DNA of 64,000 nucleotides from Methanospirillum hungatei JF-1 (GTDB lineage: Archaea > Halobacteriota > Methanomicrobia > Methanomicrobiales > Methanospirillaceae): NCBI RefSeq assembly GCF_000013445.1, contig NC_007796.1:1462936-1526935 (forward strand), in the 5' to 3' direction. A program made the position numbers and the translations under genes. The first letter of the stretch is position 1, and the number at the start of each line of letters is the position of its first letter. This document shows positions 908-64,000 of the stretch, in pieces. Below the pieces are notes generated by a model. It was given only the letters and a program-made list of their open reading frames with translations, had not been told where the DNA came from and did no database searches.

Positions 908-3900
908 TTAAGGAGAGGAGGGAAGGGGAATCCCTTCAATCCCAAAGAAGGTCAACCTACCCATATTATCTGAAGAAGTACATAACCGGCCATCATCCAA
1001 CTTTAACTCGAAAGTTCCAGGTGGGGCTACTTCTCGGATATAATCTTCCATGACGACACAATTTTCGCATCCTTCTGCTTTTTCATCCTCATCAGGTTTC
1101 AAAGTACCCCTGTACCAGGGTTTTCCATTCCAATACAATGTATATGGAATGCTGCCAGACTCATCAGGTTTCATTGCCACGGTACTTATTTTAAATACCT
1201 CTGAATAATCCATTTGAGAGGTTTTTGCATGAACTTCCTGAATCGTGCAGCAATCTTTACATGGCTCTTTTTCTCCTGCCAGGACTGCTATCTTATAGAC
1301 AGGTTCAGTTCTTTTAGGTTTAACTTCCCCACCTGTATCTGGAACCTCAACTACCTGGTCTTCATATCCATCTTCATGTTCAAAGGTTAGGAGATATTTC
1401 CCTGGATCTACTCCAGTTATCAGTAAGGGAGTCAATCCTTGGGGTTCTCCATTAATGTATACCTCAATATTTTCAGGCTGTTCCAAGAGGTTGATCGAAC
1501 CATTCACAATTTCTATTGATTCAATTTGGGATGGTTCTTCAGGAATTTTGCTTAATAATCCTTCATCCGGATTTGGAGTAATTATTGGCTGAATTTCTGG
1601 AGTGACCTCTTCGGTAGGTTCAGGAGTCAACGTAGGCTCTGGAGTGACCTCTTCGGTAGGTTCAGGAGTCATCGTAGGCTCTGGAGTGACCTCTTCGGTA
1701 GGTTCAGGAGTCAACGTAGGCTCTGGAGTGACCTCTTCGGTAGGTTCAGGAGTCAACGTAGGCTCTGGAGTGACCTCTTCGGTAGGTTCAGGAGTCAACG
1801 TAGGCTCTGGAGTGACCTCTTCGGTAGGTTCAGGAGTCATCGTAGGCTCTGGAGTGACCTCTTCGGTAGGTTCAGGAGTCATCGTAGGCTCTGGAGTGAC
1901 CTCTTCGGTAGGTTCAGGAGTCATCGTAGGCTCTGGAGTGACCTCTTCGGTAGGTTCAGGAGTCATCGTAGGCTCTGGAGTGACCTCTTCGGTAGGTTCA
2001 GGAGTCATCGTAGGCTCTGGAGTGACCTCTTCGGTAGGTTCAGGAGTCATCGTAGGCTCTGGAGTGACCTCTTCGGTAGGTTCAGGAGTCAACGTAGGCT
2101 CTGGAGTGACCTCTTCGGTAGGTTCAGGAGTCAACGTAGGCTCTGGAGTGACCTCTTCGGTAGGTTCAGGAGTCATCGTAGGCTCTGGAGTGACCTCTTC
2201 GGTAGGTTCAGGAGTCAACGTAGGCTCTGGAGTGACCTCTTCGGTAGGTTCAGGAGTCAACGTAGGCTCTGGAGTGACCTCTTCGGTAGGTTCAGGAGTC
2301 AACGTAGGCTCTGGAGTGACCTCTTCGGTAGGTTCAGGAGTCATCGTAGGCTCTGGAGTGACCTCTTCGGTAGGTTCAGGAGTCATCGTAGGCTCTGGAG
2401 TGACCTCTTCGGTAGGTTCAGGAGTCATCGTAGGCTCTGGAGTGTCCTCTTCGGTAGGTTCAGGAGTCATCGTAGGCTCTGGAGTGACCTCTTCGGTAGG
2501 TTCAGGAGTCAACGTAGGCTCAGGGGTGACTTCTTCACCTAACTCTGGAGTGACTGTTGGCTCTGGAGTAACTTCTTCTGTAGATTCAGGAGTCAACGTA
2601 GGCTCAGGGGTGACTTCTTCACCTAACTCCGGAGTAACCGTGGGTTCAGGAGTAATCTCTTCGCCTAACTCCGGAGTGACCGTGGGTTCAGCAGTAACCT
2701 CTTTACCGAATTCCGGAGTGACTGTCGGTTCAACAGTGACCTCTTCGGTGGGTTCGGGACTGACCGTAGGTTCAGGGGTGACTTCTTCACCTAACTCTGG
2801 AGTGACTGTCGGTTCAGCAGTAACCTCTTTACCGAATTCCGGAGTGACTGTCGGTTCAACAGTGACCTCTTCGGTGGGTTCGGGACTGACCGTAGGTTCA
2901 GGAGTAATCTCTTCGCCTACTTCAGGAGTGACTGTTGGCTCAGGAGTAAACTCTTCACCGATTTCGGGAGTGACCGTGGGTTCAGCAGTAACCTCTTCAC
3001 CTACTTCAGGAGTGACCGTGGGTTCAGCAGTAACCTCTTCACCTACTTCAGGAGTGACCGTGGGTTCAGCAGTAACCTCTTCACCTACTTCAGGAGTGAC
3101 TGTTGGCTCAGGAGTAAACTCTTTACCGATTTCGGGAGTGACCGTGGGTTCAGCAGTAACCTCTTCACCTAACTCGGGAGTGACTGTTGGTTCAGGAGTA
3201 ACCTCTTCGCCTAACTCCGGAGTGACCGTAGGTTCAGGGGTAACCTCTTCGCCTAACTCCGGAGTGACCGTAGGTTCAGGGGTAACCTCTTCGCCTAACT
3301 CCGGAGTGACTGTCGGTTCAGGGGTAACTTCTTCACCATACTCCGGAGTAACCGTAGGTTCAGGGGTAACCTCTTCGCCTAACTCCGGAGTGACCGTAGG
3401 TTCAGGGGTAACCTCTTCGCCTAACTCCGGAGTGACTGTCGGTTCAGGGGTAACTTCTTCACCATACTCCGGAGTAACCGTAGGTTCAGGGGTGACTTCT
3501 TCACCTAACTCCGGAGTAACTGTCGGTTCAGGGGTGACCTCTTCGCCTAACTCCGGAGTAACTGTCGGTTCAGGGGTGACCTCTTCGCCTAACTCCGGAG
3601 TGACTGTCGGTTCAGGGGTGACTTCTTCACCTAACTCCGGAGTGACCGTGGGTTCAGGAGTAACTTCTTCACCTAACTCTGGAGTAACCGTAGGTTCGGG
3701 GGTAACTTCTTCACCTAACTCCGGAGTCACTGTCGGTTCAGGGGTGACCTCTTCGCCTACTTCAGGAGTCACTGTCGGTTCAGGGGTGACCTCTTCGCCT
3801 ACTTCAGGAGTGACTGTTGGCTCAGGAGTAACCTCTTCACCGAATTCAGGAGTGACTGTTGGCTCAGGGGTGACTTCTTCGCCTAACTCTGAAGTGACCG

Positions 3901-6900
3901 TAGGTTCAGGGGTGACTTCTTCGCCTAATTCAGGAGTGACTGTTGGCTCAGGGGTGACTTCTTCGCCTAATTCAGGAGTGACTGTTGGCTCAGGAGTATC
4001 CTCTTCACCGATTACGGGAGTGACCGTAGGTTCAGGGGTGACTTCTTCGCCTACTTCAGGAGTGACTGTTGGCTCAGGAGTATCCTCTTCACCGATTACG
4101 GGAGTGACCGTAGGTTCAGGGGTGACCTCTTCGCCTACTTCAGGAGTGACTGTTGGCTCAGGAGTAACCTCTTCACCGAATTCAGGAGTGACTGTTGGCT
4201 CAGGGGTGACTTCTTCGCCTAACTCTGAAGTGACCGTAGGTTCAGGGGTGACTTCTTCGCCTAATTCAGGAGTGACTGTTGGCTCAGGAGTAACCACTTC
4301 ACCGAATTCAGGAGTGACTGTTGGCTCAGGGGTGACTTCTTCGCCTAACTCTGGAGTGACCGTAGGTTCAGGGGTGACTTCTTCGCCTACTTCAGGAGTG
4401 ACTGTTGGCTCAGGAGTATCCTCTTCACCGATTACGGGAGTGACCGTAGGTTCAGGGGTGACTTCTTCACCTAAATCCGGAGTGACCGTAGGTTCAGGGG
4501 TGACTTCTTCACCATACTCTGGAGTGACTGTCGGTTCAGGGGTGACTTCTTCACCATACTCTGGAGTGACTGTCGGTTCGGGGGTGACTTCTTCACCATA
4601 CTCTGGAGTGACTGTCGGTTCGGGGGTGACTTCTTCACCGAATTCAGGAGTGACTGTTGGTTCAGGGGTAACATCTTCGCCTAACTCCGGAGTGACCGTA
4701 GGTTCAACAGTGACCTCTTCGCCTACTTCAGGAGTGACCGTAGGTTCAACAGTGACCTCTTCGCTGAGTTCAGGAGTCAACATAGGCTCTGGAGTAACTT
4801 CTTCGCCTACTTCAGGAGTGACTGTCGGTTCAGGAGTAACTTCTTCGCCAAATTCCGGAGTAACTGTCGGTTCGGGGGTAACTTCTTCACCGATTTCAGG
4901 AGTAACCGTAGGCTCAGGGGTGACTACTTCGCCTAATTCATGAATGACCGCGGGCGTACTAGTAACGGTGGGCATTACAGTCGGAGTGGCAGTCCTCTGA
5001 CTGTTGACATTAGCATTGTCATTCAATTTCCCGGAATTGCCAGTAGTGATTACGGGAGTAGAGGTTGGAGACACAGTGGCTACAACAACTGGTGTTGGAA
5101 GAGTGACCACGGGTGTACTTGTAACGGTGGGCATTACAGTCGGAGTGGCAGTCCTTTGACTGTTGACATTGGCTTTGTCATTCAATTTCCCGGAATTGCC
5201 AGTAGTGATTACGGGAGTAGAGGTTGGAGACACAGTGGCTACAACAACTGGTGTTGTAGGAGTGACCACGGGTGTACTTGTAACGGTGGGCATTACAGTC
5301 GGAGTGGCAGTCCTCTGACTGTTGATATTGGCTTTGTCATTCAATTTCCCGGAATTGCCAGTAGTGATTACGGGAGTAGAGGTTGGAGACACAGTGGCTA
5401 CAACAACTGGTGTTGTAGGAGTGACCACGGGTGTACTTGTAACGGTGGGCATTACAGTCGGAGTGGCAGTCCTCTGACTGTTGACATTGGCTTTGTCATT
5501 CAATTTCCCGGAATTGCCAGTAGTGATTACGGGAGTAGAGGTTGGAGACACAGTGGCTACAACAACTGGTGTTGTAGTTGTGACCACTGGAATGACAGTT
5601 ACAACTGGCTCGACACTGGAGGTCTTTTCAGATTCTGGTTTCTCTTTCTTGTCCTTATCTGGCAGTAAAACCTGAGCACCGGGCTTAATTCCAGTTGTAC
5701 CGTCATAATTCGGAGTGGCAAGAGTTGCACCTTCATCAGTGATCTCCTGAGAACCGGAAGGAGTAGTGACCTGGGCTCCTTTCTTCTCCTTATCTTCCTC
5801 AGTCTCCTGAACGGTAACAGGAGTCGGAGTGACATCAGGACTAATAGTTACAACTGGCTCGACACTTGATGACTTATCAGATTCTGGTTTCTCTTTCTTA
5901 TCCTTATCGGGCAGTAAAACCTGAGCACCAGGCTTGGTACCGGTTGTGCCGTCATAATTCGGAGTGGTAAGAGTTGTACCTTCATCAGTGATCTCCTGAG
6001 AACCGGAAGGAGTAGTAACCTGGGCACCTTTTTTCTCCTTCTCTTCCTCTGTCTCCTGATCAGGGACAATAATCGGGGTGGCTTCGGGACTGACAGTTAC
6101 AACTGGCTCGACATCGGAAGCCTTTTCAGATTCTGGTTTCTCTTTCTTGTCCTTATCTGGCAGTAAAACCTGAGCACCAGGCTTGGTACCGGTTGTGCCG
6201 TCATAATTCGGAGTGGTAAGAGTTGTACCTTCATCAGTGATCTCCTGAGAACCGGAAGGAGTAGTAACCTGGGCACCTTTCTTCTCCTTCTCTTCCTCAG
6301 TCTCCTGAACAGGGATTATAGTTGACGTGGGCTCAGGACTAACAGTTACAACTGGCTCGATATCCGAAGTCTTTTCGGATTCTGGTTTCTCTTTCTTGTC
6401 CTTATCTGGAAGTAAAACCTGTGCACCAGGCTTGGTACCGGTTGTACCATCATAATTCGGGGTAGCAAGAGTTGTACCTTCATCGGTGATCTCCTGAGAA
6501 CCGGAAGGAGTAGTGACCTGGGCGCCTTTCTTCTCCTTATCTTCCTCAGTCTCCTGAACAGGGATTATAGTTGACGTGGGCTCAGGACTAACAGTTACAA
6601 CTGGCTCGATATCCGAAGTCTTTTCGGATTCTGGTTTCTCTTTCTTGTCCTTATCTGGAAGTAAAACCTGTGCACCAGGCTTGGTACCGGTTGTACCATC
6701 ATAATTCGGGGTAGCAAGAGTTGTACCTTCATCGGTGATCTCCTGAGAACCGGAAGGAGTAGTGACCTGGGCGCCTTTCTTCTCCTTCTCTTCCTCAGTC
6801 TCCTGAATAGGGACAGTAGTCGGGGTGACTTCAGGACTGACAGTTACAACAGGCTCGACATCAGAAGTCTTTTCTGTTTCTGGTTTCTCTTTCTTGTCCT

Positions 6901-7969
6901 TATTGGGCAGTAAAACCTGAGCACCAGGCTTAGTCCCGGTTATGCCGTCATAATTGGGGGTGGCAAGAGTTTGACCTTCATCGCTGATCTCCTGAGAACC
7001 GGAAGGAGTAGTAACCTGGGCACCTTTCTTCTCCTTATCTTCCTCTGTCTCCTGAACAGGGACAGTAGTCGGGGTGACTTCGGGAATGACCGTTACAACA
7101 GGTTCTACCTCGGAAATCTTTTCGGATTCTGGTTTCTCTTTCTTATCCTTATCGGGCAGTAAAACCTGAGCACCGGGCTTAGTACCGGTTGCACCATCAT
7201 AATTCGGGGTAGCTAGAGTTGGACCTTCATCGGTTATCTCCTGAGAACCGGAAGGAGTAGTAACCTGGGCACCTTTCTTTTCTATTTCACTTACAGGCTC
7301 TTCAACCTGAAGCATGAACGGAGAAATTCCGCTTTGAAACTCTTCTTCCAGTATTGAGAGAGATTCGCCAAAAATTGCTCCATTGGCTGTTGAAAATTCA
7401 AAGTTATCCTGCTCTATTTCATTTTCACTCTTTTCAACAATCAAAACCGGCTCAATCGTCGATAGAGCTTCTATTACAGGGGGACCCTCTTCGGATGCCA
7501 GTCCTTCTCCAAATATCGCCCCATTCGCAGTAGAGAGCTCAAAATCAATATCGAAATCAGCCCATGAACCAAAAAAATCCTCTTCAACAGACTCAATGGA
7601 AGAAATTGATTCAAATTCCAGCAATCCTTCTTCCTCATTCAGTCCGACCCCATAAACTGCACCATTAGCAAGAGAGATTTCATACTCAAGATTTTCTACA
7701 GGAGCAGTATCAGTTTCCGGAGCGGGTTCTGTTTCTGGAGAAGGAACTGGTTCATCCCAGTCGAGAGATTCGGAAATATCTATCTCCTCCCAATCGACTG
7801 GTTCTTCAAACTCTTCCTCTATTAATTCATTCCAATCAAATTGACCTTCAGGTTCTATTGGTTCGGGCGTAGGAACATCAGTAAAATTATCAGCACATGC
7901 ATAACTACCGATTAATAAAAATAAGAATATTAATAGCGGACCTGATAATTTGTAATAATTTATTTTCAT
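908..7969 (-). CDS. Giant secreted repeat protein with PEGA domain
   Basis: A very long gene of about 2,353 codons. The ATG at 7969 is preferred over one 33 bases upstream because GGGGTGA lies just before it and it opens directly on a signal peptide (LLIFLFLLIGSYACA). After an acidic N-terminal part with three copies of an ANGAxxGxxL motif come seven 83-residue repeats, four 53-residue repeats and about 79 repeats of 14 residues built on VTPELGEEVTPEPT. The C-terminus holds a PEGA domain (IEVYINGEPQGLTPLLITGV) and about 120 residues with Cys pairs CKDCC and CENC. No C-terminal membrane anchor or sorting motif is visible. It is probably a secreted or surface protein; the repeats look like an extended stalk, which is inference. 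No enzymatic domain was seen. Confidence 0.85.
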   Translation of the reverse strand: MKINYYKLSGPLLIFLFLLIGSYACADNFTDVPTPEPIEPEGQFDWNELIEEEFEEPVDWEEIDISESLDWDEPVPSPETEPAPETDTAPVENLEYEISLANGAVYGVGLNEEEGLLEFESISSIESVEEDFFGSWADFDIDFELSTANGAIFGEGLASEEGPPVIEALSTIEPVLIVEKSENEIEQDNFEFSTANGAIFGESLSILEEEFQSGISPFMLQVEEPVSEIEKKGAQVTTPSGSQEITDEGPTLATPNYDGATGTKPGAQVLLPDKDKKEKPESEKISEVEPVVTVIPEVTPTTVPVQETEEDKEKKGAQVTTPSGSQEISDEGQTLATPNYDGITGTKPGAQVLLPNKDKKEKPETEKTSDVEPVVTVSPEVTPTTVPIQETEEEKEKKGAQVTTPSGSQEITDEGTTLATPNYDGTTGTKPGAQVLLPDKDKKEKPESEKTSDIEPVVTVSPEPTSTIIPVQETEEDKEKKGAQVTTPSGSQEITDEGTTLATPNYDGTTGTKPGAQVLLPDKDKKEKPESEKTSDIEPVVTVSPEPTSTIIPVQETEEEKEKKGAQVTTPSGSQEITDEGTTLTTPNYDGTTGTKPGAQVLLPDKDKKEKPESEKASDVEPVVTVSPEATPIIVPDQETEEEKEKKGAQVTTPSGSQEITDEGTTLTTPNYDGTTGTKPGAQVLLPDKDKKEKPESDKSSSVEPVVTISPDVTPTPVTVQETEEDKEKKGAQVTTPSGSQEITDEGATLATPNYDGTTGIKPGAQVLLPDKDKKEKPESEKTSSVEPVVTVIPVVTTTTPVVVATVSPTSTPVITTGNSGKLNDKANVNSQRTATPTVMPTVTSTPVVTPTTPVVVATVSPTSTPVITTGNSGKLNDKANINSQRTATPTVMPTVTSTPVVTPTTPVVVATVSPTSTPVITTGNSGKLNDKANVNSQRTATPTVMPTVTSTPVVTLPTPVVVATVSPTSTPVITTGNSGKLNDNANVNSQRTATPTVMPTVTSTPAVIHELGEVVTPEPTVTPEIGEEVTPEPTVTPEFGEEVTPEPTVTPEVGEEVTPEPMLTPELSEEVTVEPTVTPEVGEEVTVEPTVTPELGEDVTPEPTVTPEFGEEVTPEPTVTPEYGEEVTPEPTVTPEYGEEVTPEPTVTPEYGEEVTPEPTVTPDLGEEVTPEPTVTPVIGEEDTPEPTVTPEVGEEVTPEPTVTPELGEEVTPEPTVTPEFGEVVTPEPTVTPELGEEVTPEPTVTSELGEEVTPEPTVTPEFGEEVTPEPTVTPEVGEEVTPEPTVTPVIGEEDTPEPTVTPEVGEEVTPEPTVTPVIGEEDTPEPTVTPELGEEVTPEPTVTPELGEEVTPEPTVTSELGEEVTPEPTVTPEFGEEVTPEPTVTPEVGEEVTPEPTVTPEVGEEVTPEPTVTPELGEEVTPEPTVTPELGEEVTPEPTVTPELGEEVTPEPTVTPELGEEVTPEPTVTPELGEEVTPEPTVTPELGEEVTPEPTVTPEYGEEVTPEPTVTPELGEEVTPEPTVTPELGEEVTPEPTVTPEYGEEVTPEPTVTPELGEEVTPEPTVTPELGEEVTPEPTVTPELGEEVTPEPTVTPELGEEVTAEPTVTPEIGKEFTPEPTVTPEVGEEVTAEPTVTPEVGEEVTAEPTVTPEVGEEVTAEPTVTPEIGEEFTPEPTVTPEVGEEITPEPTVSPEPTEEVTVEPTVTPEFGKEVTAEPTVTPELGEEVTPEPTVSPEPTEEVTVEPTVTPEFGKEVTAEPTVTPELGEEITPEPTVTPELGEEVTPEPTLTPESTEEVTPEPTVTPELGEEVTPEPTLTPEPTEEVTPEPTMTPEPTEEDTPEPTMTPEPTEEVTPEPTMTPEPTEEVTPEPTMTPEPTEEVTPEPTLTPEPTEEVTPEPTLTPEPTEEVTPEPTLTPEPTEEVTPEPTMTPEPTEEVTPEPTLTPEPTEEVTPEPTLTPEPTEEVTPEPTMTPEPTEEVTPEPTMTPEPTEEVTPEPTMTPEPTEEVTPEPTMTPEPTEEVTPEPTMTPEPTEEVTPEPTMTPEPTEEVTPEPTLTPEPTEEVTPEPTLTPEPTEEVTPEPTLTPEPTEEVTPEPTMTPEPTEEVTPEPTLTPEPTEEVTPEIQPIITPNPDEGLLSKIPEEPSQIESIEIVNGSINLLEQPENIEVYINGEPQGLTPLLITGVDPGKYLLTFEHEDGYEDQVVEVPDTGGEVKPKRTEPVYKIAVLAGEKEPCKDCCTIQEVHAKTSQMDYSEVFKISTVAMKPDESGSIPYTLYWNGKPWYRGTLKPDEDEKAEGCENCVVMEDYIREVAPPGTFELKLDDGRLCTSSDNMGRLTFFGIEGIPLPSSP
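1602..4943 (-). repeat. 42-bp tandem repeat array (about 79 copies)
   Basis: Direct repeats with an exact 42-bp period encode the 14-residue TPE-rich unit of the giant protein. Units at 1602-2510, the 3' end of the gene, are almost identical at the base level and differ mainly at one codon (Leu or Met). Units at 2510-4943 are more diverged, with T/A/V/P substitutions and LG, VG, FG, YG, IG endings. This gradient suggests recent expansion at the 3' end. Confidence 0.95.
4955..5595 (-). repeat. 159-bp tandem repeat, four copies
   Basis: The string aacggtgggcattacagtcg recurs at 4964, 5123, 5282 and 5441, an exact 159-bp period (53 residues). The repeat encodes a Thr/Val/Pro-rich segment containing GNSGKLND and NSQRTATPTV. 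The copies are nearly identical, so the array is recent or homogenised. Confidence 0.95.
5610..7290 (-). repeat. 249-bp tandem repeat, seven copies
   Basis: Seven copies of an 83-residue unit, each beginning KKGAQVTTPSGSQE and containing a TPNYDG core and KPGAQVLLP(D/N)KDKKEKPE. The two copies near 6301 and 6550 are essentially identical over the full 249-bp period. The charged Lys/Glu ends alternate with Thr/Val/Pro linkers. Confidence 0.93.
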
Positions 7970-8306
7970 TTTGGTCACCCCTTCCGTTTCCTTTGCCATC
8001 ATCCTATTTGTCTATTCATTTCTGTAGAACTTACTTCGAATAAAAAAATTATCATTTTCACACGATATGACCATGGGATAGAGAGATTTCATGATACAAG
8101 GTTGGTCATGGATGGAAAAACAAGAGGATGAAATCTCATAAACTTTCGATAACTGTTAGTAGGCTATCAATCCATAAATACATATCGACAATTTTTGAAA
8201 ATTTGCTAAAAATGAGCTGAATGGTTTTTAATTATTTATTTTTATATTATCTTTTTATTGCTATGTGAGCGATATGAATTTATATGACCTATTCTAACAA
8301 TACCAT
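7970..8306. other. AT-rich divergent spacer
   Basis: A 337-base spacer between the divergently transcribed repeat protein and the secreted protein starting at 8307. It must hold both promoters. The stretch 8220-8270 is extremely AT-rich and plausibly includes TATA elements for the rightward gene. I see no clear palindrome, RNA gene or ORF here. Confidence 0.5.
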
Positions 8307-11971: not shown

Positions 11972-12197
11972 CCATCTTCTGATCAGGAGATAAAAACTTC
12001 GATTCAGATCACAGGGATGAAAAGGACATGTGGGCATAAATGAAGATTGAAGCCCATATCATCCGGAAAAATGAGGAGGCTCCCCATGTAGATTATAAAT
12101 GATGCAGCCATTTCCATATCGTTTGGCTACCCAAAAAATTTTTTTTCCCAATTCCCTGAACGAAGGTTTTCATCATTTCACGTGCAAAGAGGGAAGT

Positions 12198-13074
12198 ATG
12201 ACGCTTGATCACAGGGAAGGATTCGTGGAATTTCAGGGGCGAAATATCTGGTTCAGAATGGATGGAGCACGTAATTCCGGGATTCCACTTCTCATTCTTC
12301 ATGGAGGACCGGGTGTTCCCCATGATTACCTTACCCCCCTCTCGGCCCTCTCTGGAGATCGACCGGTCATCCTATATGATCAACTGGGATGTGGAAATTC
12401 TGATAAACCAACAGACGTATCACTGTATACCCTGGACTATTTCACGCAGGAACTTGAAGCGATTCGCCGGGCACTTGATTTGAAAGAAGTTCATATTCTG
12501 GGTCAGTCCTGGGGTACCATGCTGGCGGTTCATTATATCCTGACTATGGATCCGCAGGGAGTTCGTTCACTTATCCTATCAGCCCCCTGTCTTTCAGCGT
12601 CCCGGTGGCATGATGATCAACGTCGGTACATCAATGAACTTCCAGCAGATGTCCGGGAGATAATTCTGACAAGTGAAAGAGAGGGAACCTGTGATACCCC
12701 GGAATACCAGGAAGCGATGATGGTATTTTACCGGAAACATGTCTGCCGGATGGATTCCTGGCCCGAATGTCTTCAAAAGTCCATGGAAAAAATGGCTTTT
12801 GATGTGTATGAACATATGTGGGCCGAGTGAATATACCATAACCGGAACTCTGAAAAATTATGAGCGGGCTAATGACTTAAAAAACATAACAATACCCACT
12901 CTCTTTACGTGTGGCCGTTATGATGAAGCATCCCCAGAATCAACCACGTATTATCAGAGTATGCTCCCAGGCTCCAGAATTGTCATTTTTGAGGATGCAT
13001 CCCATTCCCACCATCTTGAACAGGAGGCCGCATATCTCAATACGGTCAGGGAATTTTTGTCATCCGGAGAATGA
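12198..13074 (+). pseudogene. Proline iminopeptidase-like hydrolase, frameshifted
   Basis: Reads as a full-length (about 292-residue) alpha/beta hydrolase of the proline iminopeptidase family, split between two frames. Frame one (from the ATG at 12198, after GAGGGAAG) carries the oxyanion motif HGGPG and the nucleophile elbow GQSWG, and ends at the TGA at 12828. Frame two continues with GPSEYTITGTL, then the Asp loop CGRYDEAS and the catalytic His in ASHSHH. The join lies at the GGG at 12820-12822, where two more G residues would restore MWGPSE. Catalytic residues are intact, so the break is either recent or a sequencing error in a G run. It was probably a cytosolic N-terminal prolyl peptidase. 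Confidence 0.85.
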
Positions 13075-13191: not shown

Positions 13192-13816
13192 TCATCCCGG
13201 CATTTCAGCCATCGGAACATGAGAGGCTGGGACCTCATACCAGGTCCACTCTCCGTCAGACAATGCAATTTTTTCTTTAACAGCATGAGAAAGAATGGAG
13301 AAATTACTGTTTGAACAATACACATGCGTTTTTGGTATTGATGCAATCGTTTGGGGATCAAATACAATTCTCTACATAGGGGGGATCCGGGACAAAACCC
13401 GCGTATGATGAGGGATCCTGACCGCCTGAAAGCATCATATCATAAAGCGATTGTCCGGATTCCGGGTATGCTGCATCAATATAGACCAGGTGGGAGATTT
13501 TTTCAGGCATTCTGGCTGCAACCCCAGTTATGATCATCCCTCCATAACTATGACCGACCAGGATAATGGTATCCAGATCATGCTCATGAACAAGCGAACA
13601 GATCTGGGTTATATGATCAGTGAGGTTGGAAATCTTCTCATCTCCAAGGGTGGGAGCATATCCCTGAATGCCCTGATCAGCAAGGGCAGATAGTGCTGTA
13701 TCCCAGATCCTACCTCCCATCAGGCCATCGGAAGTATGTACCGGATCTCAGGTGGTGCGTTCATTCCAGGCCTCTGTGGATATATTCCCCCCATGAACAC
13801 AGATGAATGATACCAT
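13192..13816 (-). pseudogene. Alpha/beta hydrolase, stop codon plus frameshift
   Basis: A roughly 208-codon alpha/beta hydrolase starting at the ATG at 13816 (GGAG upstream, MVSFICVHGG). An in-frame TGA sits at 13748-13750, between NERTT and DPVHTSDGL; in relatives I recall a Gly there, so one base change from GGA explains it. The nucleophile motif GHSYGG follows. A second lesion near 13367-13370 shifts the frame after PPYVE; the other frame continues FDPQTIASIPKTHVYC and ends with the catalytic His in PASHVPMAEMPG. With two lesions this is a real pseudogene. It is convergent with the broken iminopeptidase next to it. Confidence 0.85.
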
Positions 13817-14050
13817 ATTGTCTCCTGTATGCATTCAATGATGCCTTCAGTTATATAAATCGGTTTTGATTCCCCGATTATATTCAAAATTTCCCATCGG
13901 ATTATTTTCATGTGGAAACCTGAATATCAAACACTGAATATGGGGAAGAGAGTGAGTGAGTGATGGCACTTGATTATGAGAGAGGACCATCTGGCATGAA
14001 AAAAACAACCTGATTTCAGAAATTGGGTCAATGAACCATAGATATAGTGC

Positions 14051-14097
14051 TCATTACTAATGAGAAACGATATATCATTTTACTAATTAGTAATTAG
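14051..14097. promoter_or_regulatory. Twin ATTASTAAT operators before DUF4143 ATPase
   Basis: Two palindromes centred at 14057 (TCATTACTAATGA) and 14090 (CTAATTAGTAATTAG) lie directly upstream of the ATG at 14099. They share the core ATTASTAAT, and their centres are 33 bp apart, about three helical turns. The second ends against the start codon, so a bound protein would block initiation or RNA polymerase. The same arrangement recurs at 63.0 kb before a homologous gene. Site identity is inference; the palindromes are directly visible. Confidence 0.65.
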
Positions 14098-14098
14098 T

Positions 14099-15366
14099 AT
14101 GGTTTCTAAGGAGCTTCTGAGACATCTGGTTCGCCAGCAGAAGACACGGATTGATCAGAAAGATGATTCAGTTCGCCGTAATATCCTTGATCAGCTCCTT
14201 AATTCGTTTGAGGATAACCGGGTAATCATTCTTACCGGTATTAGGAGATGCGGGAAATCAACGCTCCTGAAACAGATCATGCAGACAAAATCCACTCCTG
14301 TTATGTGAATTTTGATGATGAACGACTCCTTACATTTCCTGCAGAAGAGTTCGAAATTCTAAACGAAGTTCTGATAGAGGTATATGGACCATCTGATATC
14401 TATTTTTTTGATGAAATCCAAAATATTGCCGGTTTTGAGACATTCGTGCGGCGGCTTTTCGACGAGGGAAAAAAGATAGTTATCACCGGTTCAAACGCAT
14501 CCCTTCTCAGCAGGGAATTTGGAACCAGGCTCACAGGGAGATATAAACTCTTCGAAATATTTCCATTCTCTTTTGCTGAATACCTCTGCTTTCAAAAGGT
14601 AAACGTGAGAAAGGACTCCCTGTACATACCAAATGAACGGGTCACCCTGATTACATCATTCGCAAAATATGTTGAGAATGGTGGAATGCCGGAATATCTC
14701 ATTCATTATGACCCTGAATATATTAAAACACTCTATGATAATATCCTGTATCGGGACATTATTGCCAGGTATGCAATTCGGAGACAACGACTCATTCGTG
14801 AACTCGTGGGAATTCTGATATCGAACATCTCACTCCCCTTTACGTATAACTCACTTAAAAAAACTCTGGGGCTGACAAATGCCATTACAGTCAAGGAATA
14901 CATCACCTACCTGCATAGTGCGTACATTTTCTTTGAACTGTCTCGATTTGATTATTCAGTAAAAAAACAACTCAATTCACCAAGAAAATGCTATTGTATT
15001 GATACTGCATTTGGGATACTTGGGGGTTTCTCACTTTCACCTAATAAAGGGTGGCTTTTAGAAAATATTGTCTATGTGGAGCTGCTTCGACGCGGAATGG
15101 ACGTGTATTATTTTCAGGAAAAACGAGAATGTGATTTTATCACAAAAGATGGCCCACATATTACTGGAGCACTTCAGGTATGCTTCGAACTGACGAATGA
15201 AAACCGGGACCGGGAGATTGGAGGGATATTGGAGGCTATAGAATTCTTTGGTTTAAAAGAAGGGTTTATTCTGACCAACGATGAAGAGGATCTTCTGGTA
15301 ATGGGTGAGGTTAGAATAATTATTATGCCAGTCTGGCGGTGGCTCCTGAACTATATTCCCGAGTAA
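14099..15366 (+). pseudogene. AAA_14/DUF4143-type ATPase, frameshifted
   Basis: Homologue of the ATPase that begins at 63060, split by one frameshift. The first frame (from the ATG at 14099) holds the Walker A motif GIRRCGKST and ends at the TGA at 14306-14308. The second frame takes over near 14290-14300 with CYVNFDDERLLTF, Walker B YFFDEIQ, the TGSNASLLSREFGTRLTGR segment and a C-terminal DUF4143-like region ending with an ECDFI-type nuclease-like strand. A single-base change would restore about 422 codons. These ATPases are common in archaea and their biological role is unknown. Transcription would be leaderless or nearly so, because the twin palindrome abuts the ATG. Confidence 0.85.
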
Positions 15367-15656: not shown

Positions 15657-18656
15657 GTGAAATTTATACACGCTCTCCATGAAGATGATGTTCCATTTTA
15701 TTTTGCCAATAATAAGGGGGAAAAATTGACAGAAGAGATTGCTTTTGATAAAAACAATGATGAATCCTATGGAATTAGCTCATTGGAGATTATATCTCCA
15801 AATGTTGCTCTCAAAACACTTGACAAATCAACTTTTTTTGCAGGTGGCCTAGCAATACCTAAAAAGTCGTATAAATATTTTGGAATTGAAAATTTACAAT
15901 CAAATCAGAGAAAACCAACCACAATAATCTATAGAAATAAAAAATTTGAAGCATATTTTACTGCACAAAAAAGTTACAAGGCTTTACAATATTATAACGA
16001 CTTCATGGTAGAAATAAGAAACAAATATCCCTATGCTGCGAAAAAATTAAGAGAATATCGAGGGAAAATTGACAACGGCCCAAAAATGGAAATTACCATA
16101 AATCTTGAAAAAAATGAATTGAACATTGACTTCATTGGAGATGATATTATGAATGATTACATCCCCTTTTCTTCAGAAGACTTTTTAAAACTTTTTTCAG
16201 ACATTAAAAAGTTCGTTGCGCAATCTCATTCGCATGATCTTACCACAAAAAGTTATATTGAATATTTTGGAGAATTCCAAGTAACAAAATCATTTGGACA
16301 AGGAACTCCTGCTAAGGTTTCATGGTTATCACTAAGTGTTTCTTCAGAACAACAGAAGCGATATTTTGTTTCTTTTTATTATGATAAATTCGGTAAACTT
16401 TTTCTTGTTCTAGGCATTAAAGAAGACATCCAAGAAAAATACGATTGGCCTAGCGATATTCAAAAAATTTATCCAAGATTTTCTGACATTAATGTATCTG
16501 ATGCAATAGCAAATCGATATCCAAAATCAAGAATTTTCAAAGAATTCTCTGTTGATATTAAAAATATTGATACCTCTTTAGAGGCTCTCAAAGAGGATAT
16601 AGAGCAAAGCCTCTCTAATGCCCTACAATTATTATTTCAGGTTATTAATAGCAGTGAAAAACCTAAAATTATTTGGAGATTGTCTCCGGGTAAAAAGGGA
16701 ATTTATTGGGAAGAATGGAGAAATGCGAATATTTGTTCTTTAAACATACCTGAATACAAACCATATTTCAATGAACTGGACCAAATAACTGACAGGGACT
16801 CATTTAAAACTCGCTTGAAAGAATTAGCAAGAATAGTTCATCCTGAAAATTCAAATTTTGATCTCTCTATTAGTCACCAAAATACAATTTGGTCTTATTT
16901 TCATGAAATGAAAATCGGAGACACTATTATCGCATCTACTGGAAAAAGTAGAATATATGGCATTGGAACAATAAAATCGAATGTCTTATTTCAAGATTCT
17001 GAAGATTGTCCTGTGATTAGAGAAGTGCATTGGGAATATGATGATCTAAATATTCCGATCCCTTCAGAAGTAAGTGGTAATTTTCTTAGTGCGTTAAATA
17101 AACTATCATTAGATGATTACTCAAAAATTATTACATCTATTGAGAGCGGTTTTTCTACTAATCTAGATTCAATAATTCAGTTATTAGAGAGAAAGGGACA
17201 GATTATACTTTATGGGCCTCCTGGAACTGGAAAAACTTATTCGGTTCAATCATTAATTAAAAAAACAGCATCAACACCCTATATATCAACTACAAAGGAT
17301 TATGGAAATATCCAATTCTTTTGGCTAATTACCTATAAAGACAAATATGACGATATTTCTACGATAAATTCTAAATCAATTTACACCTATCAATGGAAAT
17401 CAAATTATAATTATTCCAAATATTTCTACATGATTAATGAGGGAGACTATTTTGCAATTTACCTTTGGGATGAGAATAAAATTATTGGATATGCAAAATG
17501 TATCAAAAAAGATGAAGAATCTTTTCAATATCAATTTATCACCTTACTTGATGGACCGAAATATGGAATACTTAAGTCAGATCCTGAATTTAGCAAAGGA
17601 AAGATAATCCGCACCAAAGGGAATGCACGCATCACCATATTAGAGAATGAAGAATTTGAAAGACTCATTTTCCTTTCTGGAATAAAATATGAAGAATTAG
17701 GAATCAAGATAACTGGAAATGAAATTATTCAATATCCTTCAGAGTTCATTACATTTCATCAATCATTCTCCTATGAAGAATTTATTGAAGGCTTACGACC
17801 CATAACCGATGCGGATGGCCGGATCAGTTATTCGGTGAAAGAAGGAATATTCAAGGATTTATGTAGAACTGCATACAACACCTTACTTACGCTTGCAAAC
17901 ATTGATAAAAGGTGGAATGAAGATCAGGACGTTCCACATCTGACTGATGAAGAGACTCAATATGCACTTTCTCTCGCACCAAAAGTCCCATTTTACCTTG
18001 TTATCGATGAGATTAACCGGGGAGATATCTCCAGAATCTTTGGCGAACTCATCACATTGCTTGAAAAAGATAAACGCTTACTTGCCCCACATGAGATCAC
18101 GACAAAACTTCCCTCATCCCGGACGAGATTTGGAATCCCCCCTAACCTTTTCCTGATCGGAACGATGAATACCGCTGACAAATCTATTGCCCTCATTGAC
18201 ATCGCATTACGGAGAAGATTCGGATTTATTGAAATGATGCCGGATTATGATCTCCTCTATCGGACCTTATCCAGCGATGATGAAAGTCTTCTTGAAGTAT
18301 ATTCCATCGCAATTGCACTCCTTCGAACAATCAATCAAAGGATTCTTGAAGAGCATGATAGAGAGCACCAGATAGGGCATAGTTTCCTCCTGAAACTCAA
18401 AGATGCCAGGACAAGGGACCAGGCTATATCAGAATTGTCCATGATCTGGTATCATGAAATCATCCCCCTCCTCCATGAATATTTTTACGATGCTCCCAGG
18501 AAATTATTCAAGGTCATAGGACCTGAGTTTATGAAGTCAGATCCAAAATGCATCTACTTTTACCCGGAAAAAGAAGGTGAATCCTTCCTGTCTGCATGCA
18601 AATCGATCTCAAAGGGTTATGATCTGAATGGGTTATCCTCCACTGACGCTCTTTGA
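15657..18656 (+). CDS. mcrB: McrB-like AAA+ restriction GTPase/ATPase
   Basis: About 1,000 residues, motor subunit of a McrBC-type modification-dependent restriction system. An N-terminal part of unknown fold is followed near residues 205-330 by a region like the McrB N-terminal DUF3578 domain (SFGQGTPAKVSWLSL). Next is a PUA/EVE-like segment near 420-480 (MKIGDTIIASTGKSRIYGIG). The AAA+ core has Walker A GPPGTGKT near 520, Walker B YLVIDEINRGD near 780 and the McrB signature GTMNTADKS followed by ALRRRF near 835. A roughly 150-residue insertion with a second EVE-like pattern lies between Walker A and Walker B. The listed start is GTG and overlaps the stop of a short upstream frame, so the true N-terminus may be longer. 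It overlaps mcrC by 29 bases. Confidence 0.85.
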   Translation: MKFIHALHEDDVPFYFANNKGEKLTEEIAFDKNNDESYGISSLEIISPNVALKTLDKSTFFAGGLAIPKKSYKYFGIENLQSNQRKPTTIIYRNKKFEAYFTAQKSYKALQYYNDFMVEIRNKYPYAAKKLREYRGKIDNGPKMEITINLEKNELNIDFIGDDIMNDYIPFSSEDFLKLFSDIKKFVAQSHSHDLTTKSYIEYFGEFQVTKSFGQGTPAKVSWLSLSVSSEQQKRYFVSFYYDKFGKLFLVLGIKEDIQEKYDWPSDIQKIYPRFSDINVSDAIANRYPKSRIFKEFSVDIKNIDTSLEALKEDIEQSLSNALQLLFQVINSSEKPKIIWRLSPGKKGIYWEEWRNANICSLNIPEYKPYFNELDQITDRDSFKTRLKELARIVHPENSNFDLSISHQNTIWSYFHEMKIGDTIIASTGKSRIYGIGTIKSNVLFQDSEDCPVIREVHWEYDDLNIPIPSEVSGNFLSALNKLSLDDYSKIITSIESGFSTNLDSIIQLLERKGQIILYGPPGTGKTYSVQSLIKKTASTPYISTTKDYGNIQFFWLITYKDKYDDISTINSKSIYTYQWKSNYNYSKYFYMINEGDYFAIYLWDENKIIGYAKCIKKDEESFQYQFITLLDGPKYGILKSDPEFSKGKIIRTKGNARITILENEEFERLIFLSGIKYEELGIKITGNEIIQYPSEFITFHQSFSYEEFIEGLRPITDADGRISYSVKEGIFKDLCRTAYNTLLTLANIDKRWNEDQDVPHLTDEETQYALSLAPKVPFYLVIDEINRGDISRIFGELITLLEKDKRLLAPHEITTKLPSSRTRFGIPPNLFLIGTMNTADKSIALIDIALRRRFGFIEMMPDYDLLYRTLSSDDESLLEVYSIAIALLRTINQRILEEHDREHQIGHSFLLKLKDARTRDQAISELSMIWYHEIIPLLHEYFYDAPRKLFKVIGPEFMKSDPKCIYFYPEKEGESFLSACKSISKGYDLNGLSSTDAL

Positions 18657-19974
18657 ATGGGTGGAATATCCGGTCACCATTGGATCCCACCCAAAGATTA
18701 CTGATGGAGTTCTAACTCTTCCCCAGGAATTTTTTGATATTCTGGATGAATGTGATCCAAAGCAGCAAATATTTGCAAGAACGACAAAAACGCTTACCCC
18801 CATCAATATGGTAGGAGTAATTCGGATTGGTGACGTAACTATCCAGATTTTACCAAAGTTATTTCGCGACCATCTGAATGAGCATAAAGGGACCATATTT
18901 CGAAACCTTGCAGTCATGCTCAGTTATACCAATCTCAAACCCTTATCGAGCGATCTTACATCCATGGATCAGGAGGATATAGACATGCTTGAATTATTCC
19001 TCCGGATCTTTTCAGAGCAACTCCACCATCTTCTCTTTCGGTGTCAACACCGGCAATATCTGAACAGGGATGAACATCTGAAGTTTATTAAGGGTCGAAT
19101 TCAGGTCAATAAATATTGGAATCCCGCACAGTTGGAGAGAATTCCCTGCACTTTTAAAGAACTGACACAGGATACTCTTCTCAACAGGATCTTTAAGTTT
19201 TGCGCCACTCTGATGTCCCGGCACACACAAAATGAGGAGACGAAGGAGCATCTAAAGGGAATTTTACAGATCCTGGAACCAGTTACGTATACTCATGTTA
19301 CCTCATCAGAAACCAGATTCGTCATTCTTGACCGGTTGACAGAACAGTTTGCCCCTTTGCTCCGGTTTTGTGAGATTTATCTCAGGCATAGCACCATTAC
19401 CTTACAGGCATCACAGGTTGAGATCTTCTCTCTTCTTATCCCAATGGAAAGAGTCTTTGAACAATTCATTTCAGGAGTTTTATCAGAGCAGTCACACCTC
19501 CTTCCTGAAGGAGCAACTGTTTATTCACAATACCCAGGGGGACATCTCGCTCAAACCCTTGACGGAAGAGGTATTTTTGAATTGAGGCCTGATATCTTTA
19601 TTGATCATCCTCGCATTCCGGTCATCATTGACACGAAATATAAAATGCCTAAAAAATCATCTTCGAATTCTGGTATTAAACAATCCGACATTTACCAGAT
19701 GTTTGGATATGGAGCGAAAAAGAATGTTCCAGCCCTGATGCTCCTCTACCCGGACATTGGAGAGAAAATTGATATTGACTTGGAATTTTCATATGACAAT
19801 TGCCGGTTATCTGCATTATTGATACGGTCCATAACACTGACGTATGATCTCGCTGACCCAGTGCAATGGGAAATGTGGTTAGAGGAACTGAGAGGAATTA
19901 TGCATGATATGTATGATCGGGCTTCCCACTATGCACAGGTGGATACATCAATTCCAGTCCAGATCCATGTATGA
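18628..19974 (+). CDS. mcrC: McrC-like nuclease subunit
   Basis: 448 residues of the McrC family, the endonuclease partner of the upstream McrB-like motor. The N-terminal 150 residues match the McrC beta-rich domain (FARTTKTLTPINMVGVIRIGD and IQILPKLF). The C-terminal nuclease is of the PD-(D/E)xK type: ELRPDIFID supplies the first Asp near residue 320, and VIIDTKYK supplies the D-x-K near 335. The start overlaps the end of mcrB by 29 bases, the usual arrangement, so the two are co-translated. In known systems the complex cuts DNA carrying methylated cytosines; the recognition specificity here cannot be read from sequence. Confidence 0.88.
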   Translation: MGYPPLTLFEWVEYPVTIGSHPKITDGVLTLPQEFFDILDECDPKQQIFARTTKTLTPINMVGVIRIGDVTIQILPKLFRDHLNEHKGTIFRNLAVMLSYTNLKPLSSDLTSMDQEDIDMLELFLRIFSEQLHHLLFRCQHRQYLNRDEHLKFIKGRIQVNKYWNPAQLERIPCTFKELTQDTLLNRIFKFCATLMSRHTQNEETKEHLKGILQILEPVTYTHVTSSETRFVILDRLTEQFAPLLRFCEIYLRHSTITLQASQVEIFSLLIPMERVFEQFISGVLSEQSHLLPEGATVYSQYPGGHLAQTLDGRGIFELRPDIFIDHPRIPVIIDTKYKMPKKSSSNSGIKQSDIYQMFGYGAKKNVPALMLLYPDIGEKIDIDLEFSYDNCRLSALLIRSITLTYDLADPVQWEMWLEELRGIMHDMYDRASHYAQVDTSIPVQIHV

Positions 19975-63009: not shown

Positions 63010-63063
63010 CCACATATTACTAATATATAGTTTGAGAACAATCCATATATTACTAATATATGG
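63010..63063. promoter_or_regulatory. Twin ATTACTAAT operators at second ATPase
   Basis: Two palindromes centred at 63020 and 63053, 33 bp apart, each with core ATATTACTAATAT. The second extends symmetrically over 21 bases (63043-63063) and covers the ATG at 63060. Core, spacing and distance to the start match the site at 14.05 kb, before a homologous gene. Confidence 0.68.
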
Positions 63064-64000
63064 ATCCGTTCTCACATCACAATCTTGAAACCGTCCTGAT
63101 CAACCAGATTCAGCGGTTTAAAAATTCAAGCCCGGGAATACAAAGAAGAATTGACTTTTCACAGTATGTGAACCACCCTCAAATAATTGTAATTACCGGG
63201 GTTCGAAGATGTGGGAAATCCACCCTATTGAGACAAATCGCGGACTATTTTTCTTCGTATTTGTATGTTAACCTGGATGATGAAAGATTTGCAGGGATGG
63301 GAATTCATCATCTTACTGAAATAATGACAATATTTGAAGAGAATAATCCAGGTGTTCGAACCATTTTCCTTGATGAAATTCAAAACATTCCAGAATGGGA
63401 GAGGTTTGTCAGGAGGATTCATGATGACGGATATCAGATTTTTCTTACCGGATCGAATGCGCAACTCCTGAGTTCAGAACTTGGAACCCGCCTTACTGGC
63501 AGATATGTTACCATATCACTCTGGCCATTCAGATTTGATGAATATTGTAATGGTTTGGGTGTGACGGAATTTCCACGAGGATCACAGGCTGAAGCAGAAG
63601 TTCAACGATTATGTGTAAAATATCTGGAAGAGGGGGGATTTCCTGGTTTTCTGCAATATAAGGATCCGGAGATATTACATCAGATTTTTGAAGGCATTAT
63701 CTATCGTGACATAATCGTCCGGTATGGAATTCGCGAAATTCTTCCCTTTCGTGAATTGTGCAGATACCTCTATTCTAATCTGACTCGAGAGGCTTCATAT
63801 CAATCTCTGGCAAAATCTATTGGCGTAAAAAATGCGATGACTATCCGGTCATGGATTGGATATCTTCAGGACTCCTTTCTCATATCTGAATGCTTTAGGT
63901 TTGATTATACACTCCGTCGTCAGCATGCATATCAGAAAAAGATGTATGGGGTTGATACCGGCCTTCGAAACACTGTATCATTCAGATTTTCAGGAGATAC
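63060..64000 (+). CDS. AAA_14/DUF4143-type ATPase, partial at window end
   Basis: Open from the ATG at 63060 to the edge of the window (313 codons seen, about 100 missing). Walker A TGVRRCGKSTLL near residue 50, Walker B FLDEIQNIPEW near 100, TGSNAQLLSSELGTRLTGRY near 130, the EEGGFPGF and GIIYRDIIVRYGIR blocks and the start of the DUF4143-like region. It is intact as far as seen, unlike its homologue at 14.1 kb. The family's role is unknown. The ATG lies inside the second twin palindrome, so the gene is probably leaderless and self-controlled. Confidence 0.88.
   Translation, partial: MDPFSHHNLETVLINQIQRFKNSSPGIQRRIDFSQYVNHPQIIVITGVRRCGKSTLLRQIADYFSSYLYVNLDDERFAGMGIHHLTEIMTIFEENNPGVRTIFLDEIQNIPEWERFVRRIHDDGYQIFLTGSNAQLLSSELGTRLTGRYVTISLWPFRFDEYCNGLGVTEFPRGSQAEAEVQRLCVKYLEEGGFPGFLQYKDPEILHQIFEGIIYRDIIVRYGIREILPFRELCRYLYSNLTREASYQSLAKSIGVKNAMTIRSWIGYLQDSFLISECFRFDYTLRRQHAYQKKMYGVDTGLRNTVSFRFSGD

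Follow-up and report, generated by a model that had tools for sequence, protein, structure and literature searches.

Twin palindromes 33 bp apart precede PDC-S01-like ATPase genes and suggest that the ATPase controls its own promoter

The window analysed here is a stretch of 64,000 nucleotides from Methanospirillum hungatei JF-1. It holds two genes for ATPases of the AAA_14-DUF4143 type, each preceded by a pair of palindromes (Table 1), which an earlier note had read as a twin operator before two homologous genes. At site 2 the gene encodes both domains in one protein (AAA_14, PF13173, E 6.5e-39; DUF4143, PF13635, E 4.7e-16). At site 1 the family assignment holds, with both domains detected in the remnant, but the gene is frameshifted: the frame that opens at ATG 14099 ends at a TGA at 14306, and the remainder is an ORF at 14248-15366 in another frame. 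The sister-species ortholog reads through the frameshift point. The site 1 operator is intact although its PDC-S01 gene is broken, and sister-genome orthologs show no break there.

Both window genes match the PADLOC model PDC-S01, a candidate phage defence. PDC-S01 is of the COG1373-type AAA_14-DUF4143 kind, and the window proteins match its profile, PDLC04787, over nearly the whole length (residues 27-414 of the site 2 protein align to profile positions 11-407 of 412, E 3.3e-102). PDC-S01 has been described as an ATPase fused to a PD-(D/E)XK domain, as the fourth most common prokaryotic defence candidate and as enriched in archaea, with experimental validation pending for most PDCs (PMC12988326). 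In the openly available journal papers searched, we found nothing on the function of AAA_14, COG1373 or DUF4143, and no promoter architecture or self-control for PDC-S01. No chain in the PDB matched by sequence, only three relatives were found in viral contigs, and the operator region gave no match when searched as DNA against plasmids.

Directly downstream of the broken PDC-S01 gene are McrB-like (AAA_5) and McrC genes at 15657-19974, a defence context. Elsewhere in the window are an alpha/beta hydrolase gene at 12099-12830 (+), a short second hydrolase fragment on the opposite strand at 13358-13720 (-), and a 2364-aa ORF at 908-8002 (-) whose only match among Pfam families is a weak one to Viral_helicase1 (E 7.5e-6).

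Table 1. Twin palindromes and ATPase genes at the two sites of the window.
Feature	Position	Strand	Remarks
Operator A, site 1: palindrome CTCATTACTAATGAG	14050..14064		centre 14057, -42 from ATG; counterparts in orthologs L079-L092, L170
Spacer, site 1	14065..14080	+	likely TATA element cgATATATCATT (TTTATCATC or TTTATCGTT in orthologs), placed from sequence
Operator B, site 1: TACTAATTAGTAATTAGTA	14081..14099		palindrome perfect over 19 bp; centre 14090, -9 from ATG 14099
AAA_14-DUF4143 (PDC-S01-like) ATPase gene, site 1	14099..15366	+	broken by one single-base frameshift
Operator A, site 2: palindrome ATATTACTAATAT	63014..63026		centre 63020, -40; kept in sister species L044, L045, L077
Operator B, site 2: CCATATATTACTAATATATGG	63043..63063		perfect over 21 bp; centre 63053, -7; overlaps start codon
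AAA_14-DUF4143 (PDC-S01-like) ATPase gene, site 2	63060..64000, past window end (G000:C1:1525995-1527272)	+	intact, 425 aa

The structure of the site 2 protein was predicted with AlphaFold (pLDDT 92.8). The model has helices at 227-239, 247-254 and 259-271 and strands at 275-280 and 293-297, and residues about 227-300 are predicted to form a winged-helix layout in which 259-271 would be the recognition helix. Among solved structures the nearest are the archaeal ATPases 2QEN (PABY2304) and 2FNA (SSO1545), at Z 16.1 each, followed by the STAND ATPases CED-4, a plant NLR and Avs5 at Z 12-15. The likeness to SSO1545/PABY2304 and the STAND ATPases is that the ATPase and winged-helix region superposes, over about 260 residues. 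The site 2 protein has a STAND-type arrangement, with residues about 14-316 superposing on CED-4, the NLR and the archaeal ATPases, and it is the arrangement only that is shared. The winged helix of STAND proteins generally has a regulatory role, whereas the PDC-S01-like winged helix carries a signature of sequence-specific DNA reading, as described below.

The C-terminal domain appears to be PD-(D/E)XK-like. Of 58 aligned members, all have E319 and D343 and 57 have Q357, but the complete D...(E/Q)-X-K motif is absent, although the domain may still resemble that fold. Because all 58 have C, S, T or W where the catalytic lysine would stand, ordinary PD-(D/E)XK cleavage seems doubtful in this subfamily. 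Other DUF4143 subfamilies of the same genome (L001, L003) do have E-X-K, and they have no convincing twin operator.

The palindromes share the core ATTASTAAT, and their centres are 33 bp apart at site 1 and site 2 alike. The pairs described in the earlier note are real: core, spacing and the distance of the second centre from the ATG (9 bp at site 1, 7 bp at site 2) can all be read from the letters. The window contains ATTASTAAT 4 times where 0.5 would be expected, and as a pair it occurs twice against 0.00 expected from shuffles. With a gap of 18-30 bp, the only pairs in the whole 3,544,738-bp genome are those of the two sites. An exact scan for ATTASTAAT pairs across the order returned nothing beyond the two window sites. 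Fixed-pattern searches miss the family because its geometry is conserved and its letters are not.

Spacing was scanned by scoring two palindromic, mutually similar 15-mers per upstream region at each spacing from 18 to 55 bp. Across 136 upstream regions from 24 protein clusters of one archaeal phylum, the mean score peaks once, at 33 bp (13.07, with about 11.2 at the other spacings), and the maximum falls at 32 or 33 in 15 of the 24 clusters. A broad set of 80 loci (79 usable) was then taken from a one-genome-per-species collection whose contigs were scanned with a 6-sequence alignment, and it includes Bacteroides, Chlamydiae, Omnitrophota, Patescibacteria, Woesearchaeota, Thermoplasmatota and others. 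These 79 loci also peak at 33 bp (14.27 against 11.6), with the maximum at 32 or 33 in 46. A strong pair, with a score of at least 16, stands at 32 or 33 bp in 47% of the 79 promoters against 1.5% of 197 promoters of neighbouring genes, and at other distances the share with a strong pair is 1.3%. This conservation of geometry across phyla strongly supports the reading of the palindromes as an operator.

The common core is YATTR-N-YAAT, with a half-site consensus of TnTnYATTR over 108 genes. Orthologs and paralogs in the same order have twin palindromes at the same position, spelled differently from clade to clade: TACATTASTAATGTA in one, ACTAATTASTAATTAGT in that of site 1, TTATTACTAATAA in a third, and others besides. 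The pair of the Methanosarcina-type clade is TTTGGTYTACYAGACCAAA, at -75/-42. The earlier note had expected other family members to have the motif and the spacing. The exact motif stands before two genes only, so on its face the expectation fails for the letters, but for the geometry it holds in part, in that at least three other paralogs in this genome have a pair of their own at 32-33 bp. Many of the distant paralogs in the same genome are without a clear pair.

The operators were also specific to the ATPase gene. In 199 genomes, all 11 places with CTAATTASTAATTAGT lie before orthologs of the site 1 gene. The same 199 genomes of the order hold the palindrome TACATTASTAATGTA at 12 sites. Of these, 10 immediately precede the gene, and the remaining 2 look like remnants: one keeps only the first gene codons before a deletion, and the other is a degraded pair 2.8 kb from an intact copy and has no matching gene. 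In the 199 genomes these two operator variants are found essentially only before these ATPase genes or at their remnants. The loci L134:3060-3140 and L133:3000-3090 have twin operators that apparently outlasted a lost ATPase gene.

In Methanosarcina, five single or twin sites have no matching ATPase gene nearby. Two of them, in L211 and L212, stand beside fibrillarin and are probably operator remnants, because this fibrillarin-adjacent place still has the gene in another species (L215). A twin site at L213:1500-1550 and a single site at L209:1500-1520 adjoin a gene for what we take, on our own reading, to be a DUF2254-like membrane protein, together with presumably RbkR-like or MNT-like genes. 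L209 and L213 have no PDC-S01 gene of that clade, and their sites could be extra targets or remnants. Another of the five is in L223. Around the loci the ATPase is the only gene to recur widely, and a regulator encoded by a conserved neighbour was rejected, as no neighbouring gene is widely conserved.

The ATPase itself is probably the regulator: it would bind its own twin operator through the winged helix and repress its own promoter. What the analysis shows in its favour is the conserved geometry, the gene specificity, the clade-specific flanks, the bacterial promoter overlap and the covariation of the recognition helix. The promoter overlap was seen in 11 of the 51 broad-set loci with a strong pair, where a TTGACA-type sigma70 -35 box lies inside palindrome A or B with a matching -10 downstream (shuffles give about 0.3). 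At L269 and L275 palindrome A is centred on the -35 box, while palindrome B starts at the -10 end, and with the promoter elements placed in this way the arrangement is the geometry of a repressor. In the clades of the window, palindrome B runs up to the start codon, and between the two palindromes is a TATA-like stretch, putatively the TATA element.

The ATPase might instead bind the twin sites as an activator, or as a sensor platform at its own promoter. At many archaeal loci (for example L191-L198) the pair stands at -75/-42, with both sites upstream of the TATA element, where activators can sit. STAND relatives such as MalT are activators. The ATPase regulator IniR of mycobacteria, which is activating, offers a precedent as well (PMC5760070). 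Where promoters are readable, however, the -35 box is inside the palindromes and the -10 between or after them, and a palindrome that abuts the start codon, as in the window clades, suits steric repression. We consider activation unlikely.

The operator follows the protein. Operators from the same clade in another genome agree at 12.3 of 14 positions (n=204), against 8.7 for another clade in the same genome (n=20) and 8.9 for another clade in another genome (n=674). The flanks differ by protein clade and not by genome. Simple mutual information with operator positions -5/-6 is highest at N258 and M260. When covariation was computed within identity bins, which reduce phylogenetic confounding while shared ancestry partly remains, M260 and R263 came first among 410 columns, and among 409 windows of 8 residues the highest was 257-264, at the start of the predicted recognition helix. 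Operator position -6 is most strongly coupled to R263 (r 0.40), with the next column at half that value. Columns outside the HTH are also high (M89, I88, F157, L250), and for residues 255-268 the rank test reaches only P=0.024. The covariation signal is strong, but not clean.

These comparisons bear on whether the sites are bound by some other, dedicated regulator, whose own gene lies elsewhere in each genome and which controls the ATPase gene. Palindrome pairs in promoters are the usual mark of ordinary repressors, and a few sites do stand away from ATPase genes. Yet paralogs in one genome differ in operator while orthologs in different genera share theirs, the geometry recurs in many phyla with no widely conserved neighbour, and the flank letters vary together with the recognition helix of the ATPase itself. 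A separate regulator would have to be a different one in every clade, inherited along with the gene. The earlier note had left the choice between a dedicated regulator and self-control. Operators that follow the clade, sites almost limited to the gene, the lack of a conserved neighbour and the recognition-helix covariation favour self-control, and a separate regulator seems distinctly improbable.

It is scarcely credible that the palindromes act in mRNA, as hairpins or translation signals: the second palindrome does abut or overlap the start codon in the window clades, but elsewhere both lie upstream of or inside the promoter (with the -35 inside B) and should escape transcription, a hairpin loop could form over the one central base between the arms only at the cost of base pairs, and the fixed 33-bp spacing fits DNA helical phasing. 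A reading as RNA structure was rejected, both sites being outside the transcript in several clades. Shared ancestry alone, with upstream regions that have simply not diverged, is just as implausible: orthologs within a genus are similar throughout, but arms and spacing persist while spacers and flanks vary, among proteins 35-50% identical and across phyla, and the palindromes stay symmetric while their sequences change.

In the self-control that we propose, the protein, here of the site 2 type, has its STAND-like ATPase module at the N-terminus, then the predicted winged helix, and a PD-(D/E)XK-like domain at the C-terminus. One dimer would sit on each palindrome, and in every half-site its recognition helix (259-271) would read positions -5/-6, next to the shared core ATTR-N-YAAT. 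Two dimers 33 bp apart, or about three turns, would face the same side of the double helix and could touch. Together they would cover the promoter elements and the start site, and the gene would stay self-repressed until something titrates or inactivates the protein, or a trigger, which might be infection, switches it. The dimers, the binding, the repression rather than activation and the link to defence are all what we infer.

The operators of self-regulated toxin-antitoxin systems and C proteins consist of paired palindromes across a promoter, bound by the product of the gene that this promoter drives, with clade-specific sequence. The likeness to the PDC-S01-like operators is in these paired promoter palindromes with clade-specific sequence. 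In those systems a separate antitoxin or controller regulates, whereas here the effector ATPase itself would do so, and the PDC-S01-like operators differ from them in a spacing fixed at three turns across phyla. We extend the reading to the whole PDC-S01 family only tentatively: its members, among the commonest and least understood of the candidate defence genes, may be STAND-like ATPases in which the winged helix reads specific DNA sequences by a code that changes within the family. Each member would hold its own promoter by a three-turn twin operator, and release from it may be part of switching on the defence protein.

A family-wide operator would be a first handle on PDC-S01, in that a DNA ligand can be named for each protein and the residues that read its bases can be predicted. 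It suggests a defence protein that is its own repressor and a STAND-like ATPase whose winged helix is a DNA reader. The operator can also serve as a DNA signature for finding remnants of lost copies. In L143, two PDC-S01-type genes lie on one contig within 5 kb, at 1306-2484 (-) and 4828-6096 (+).
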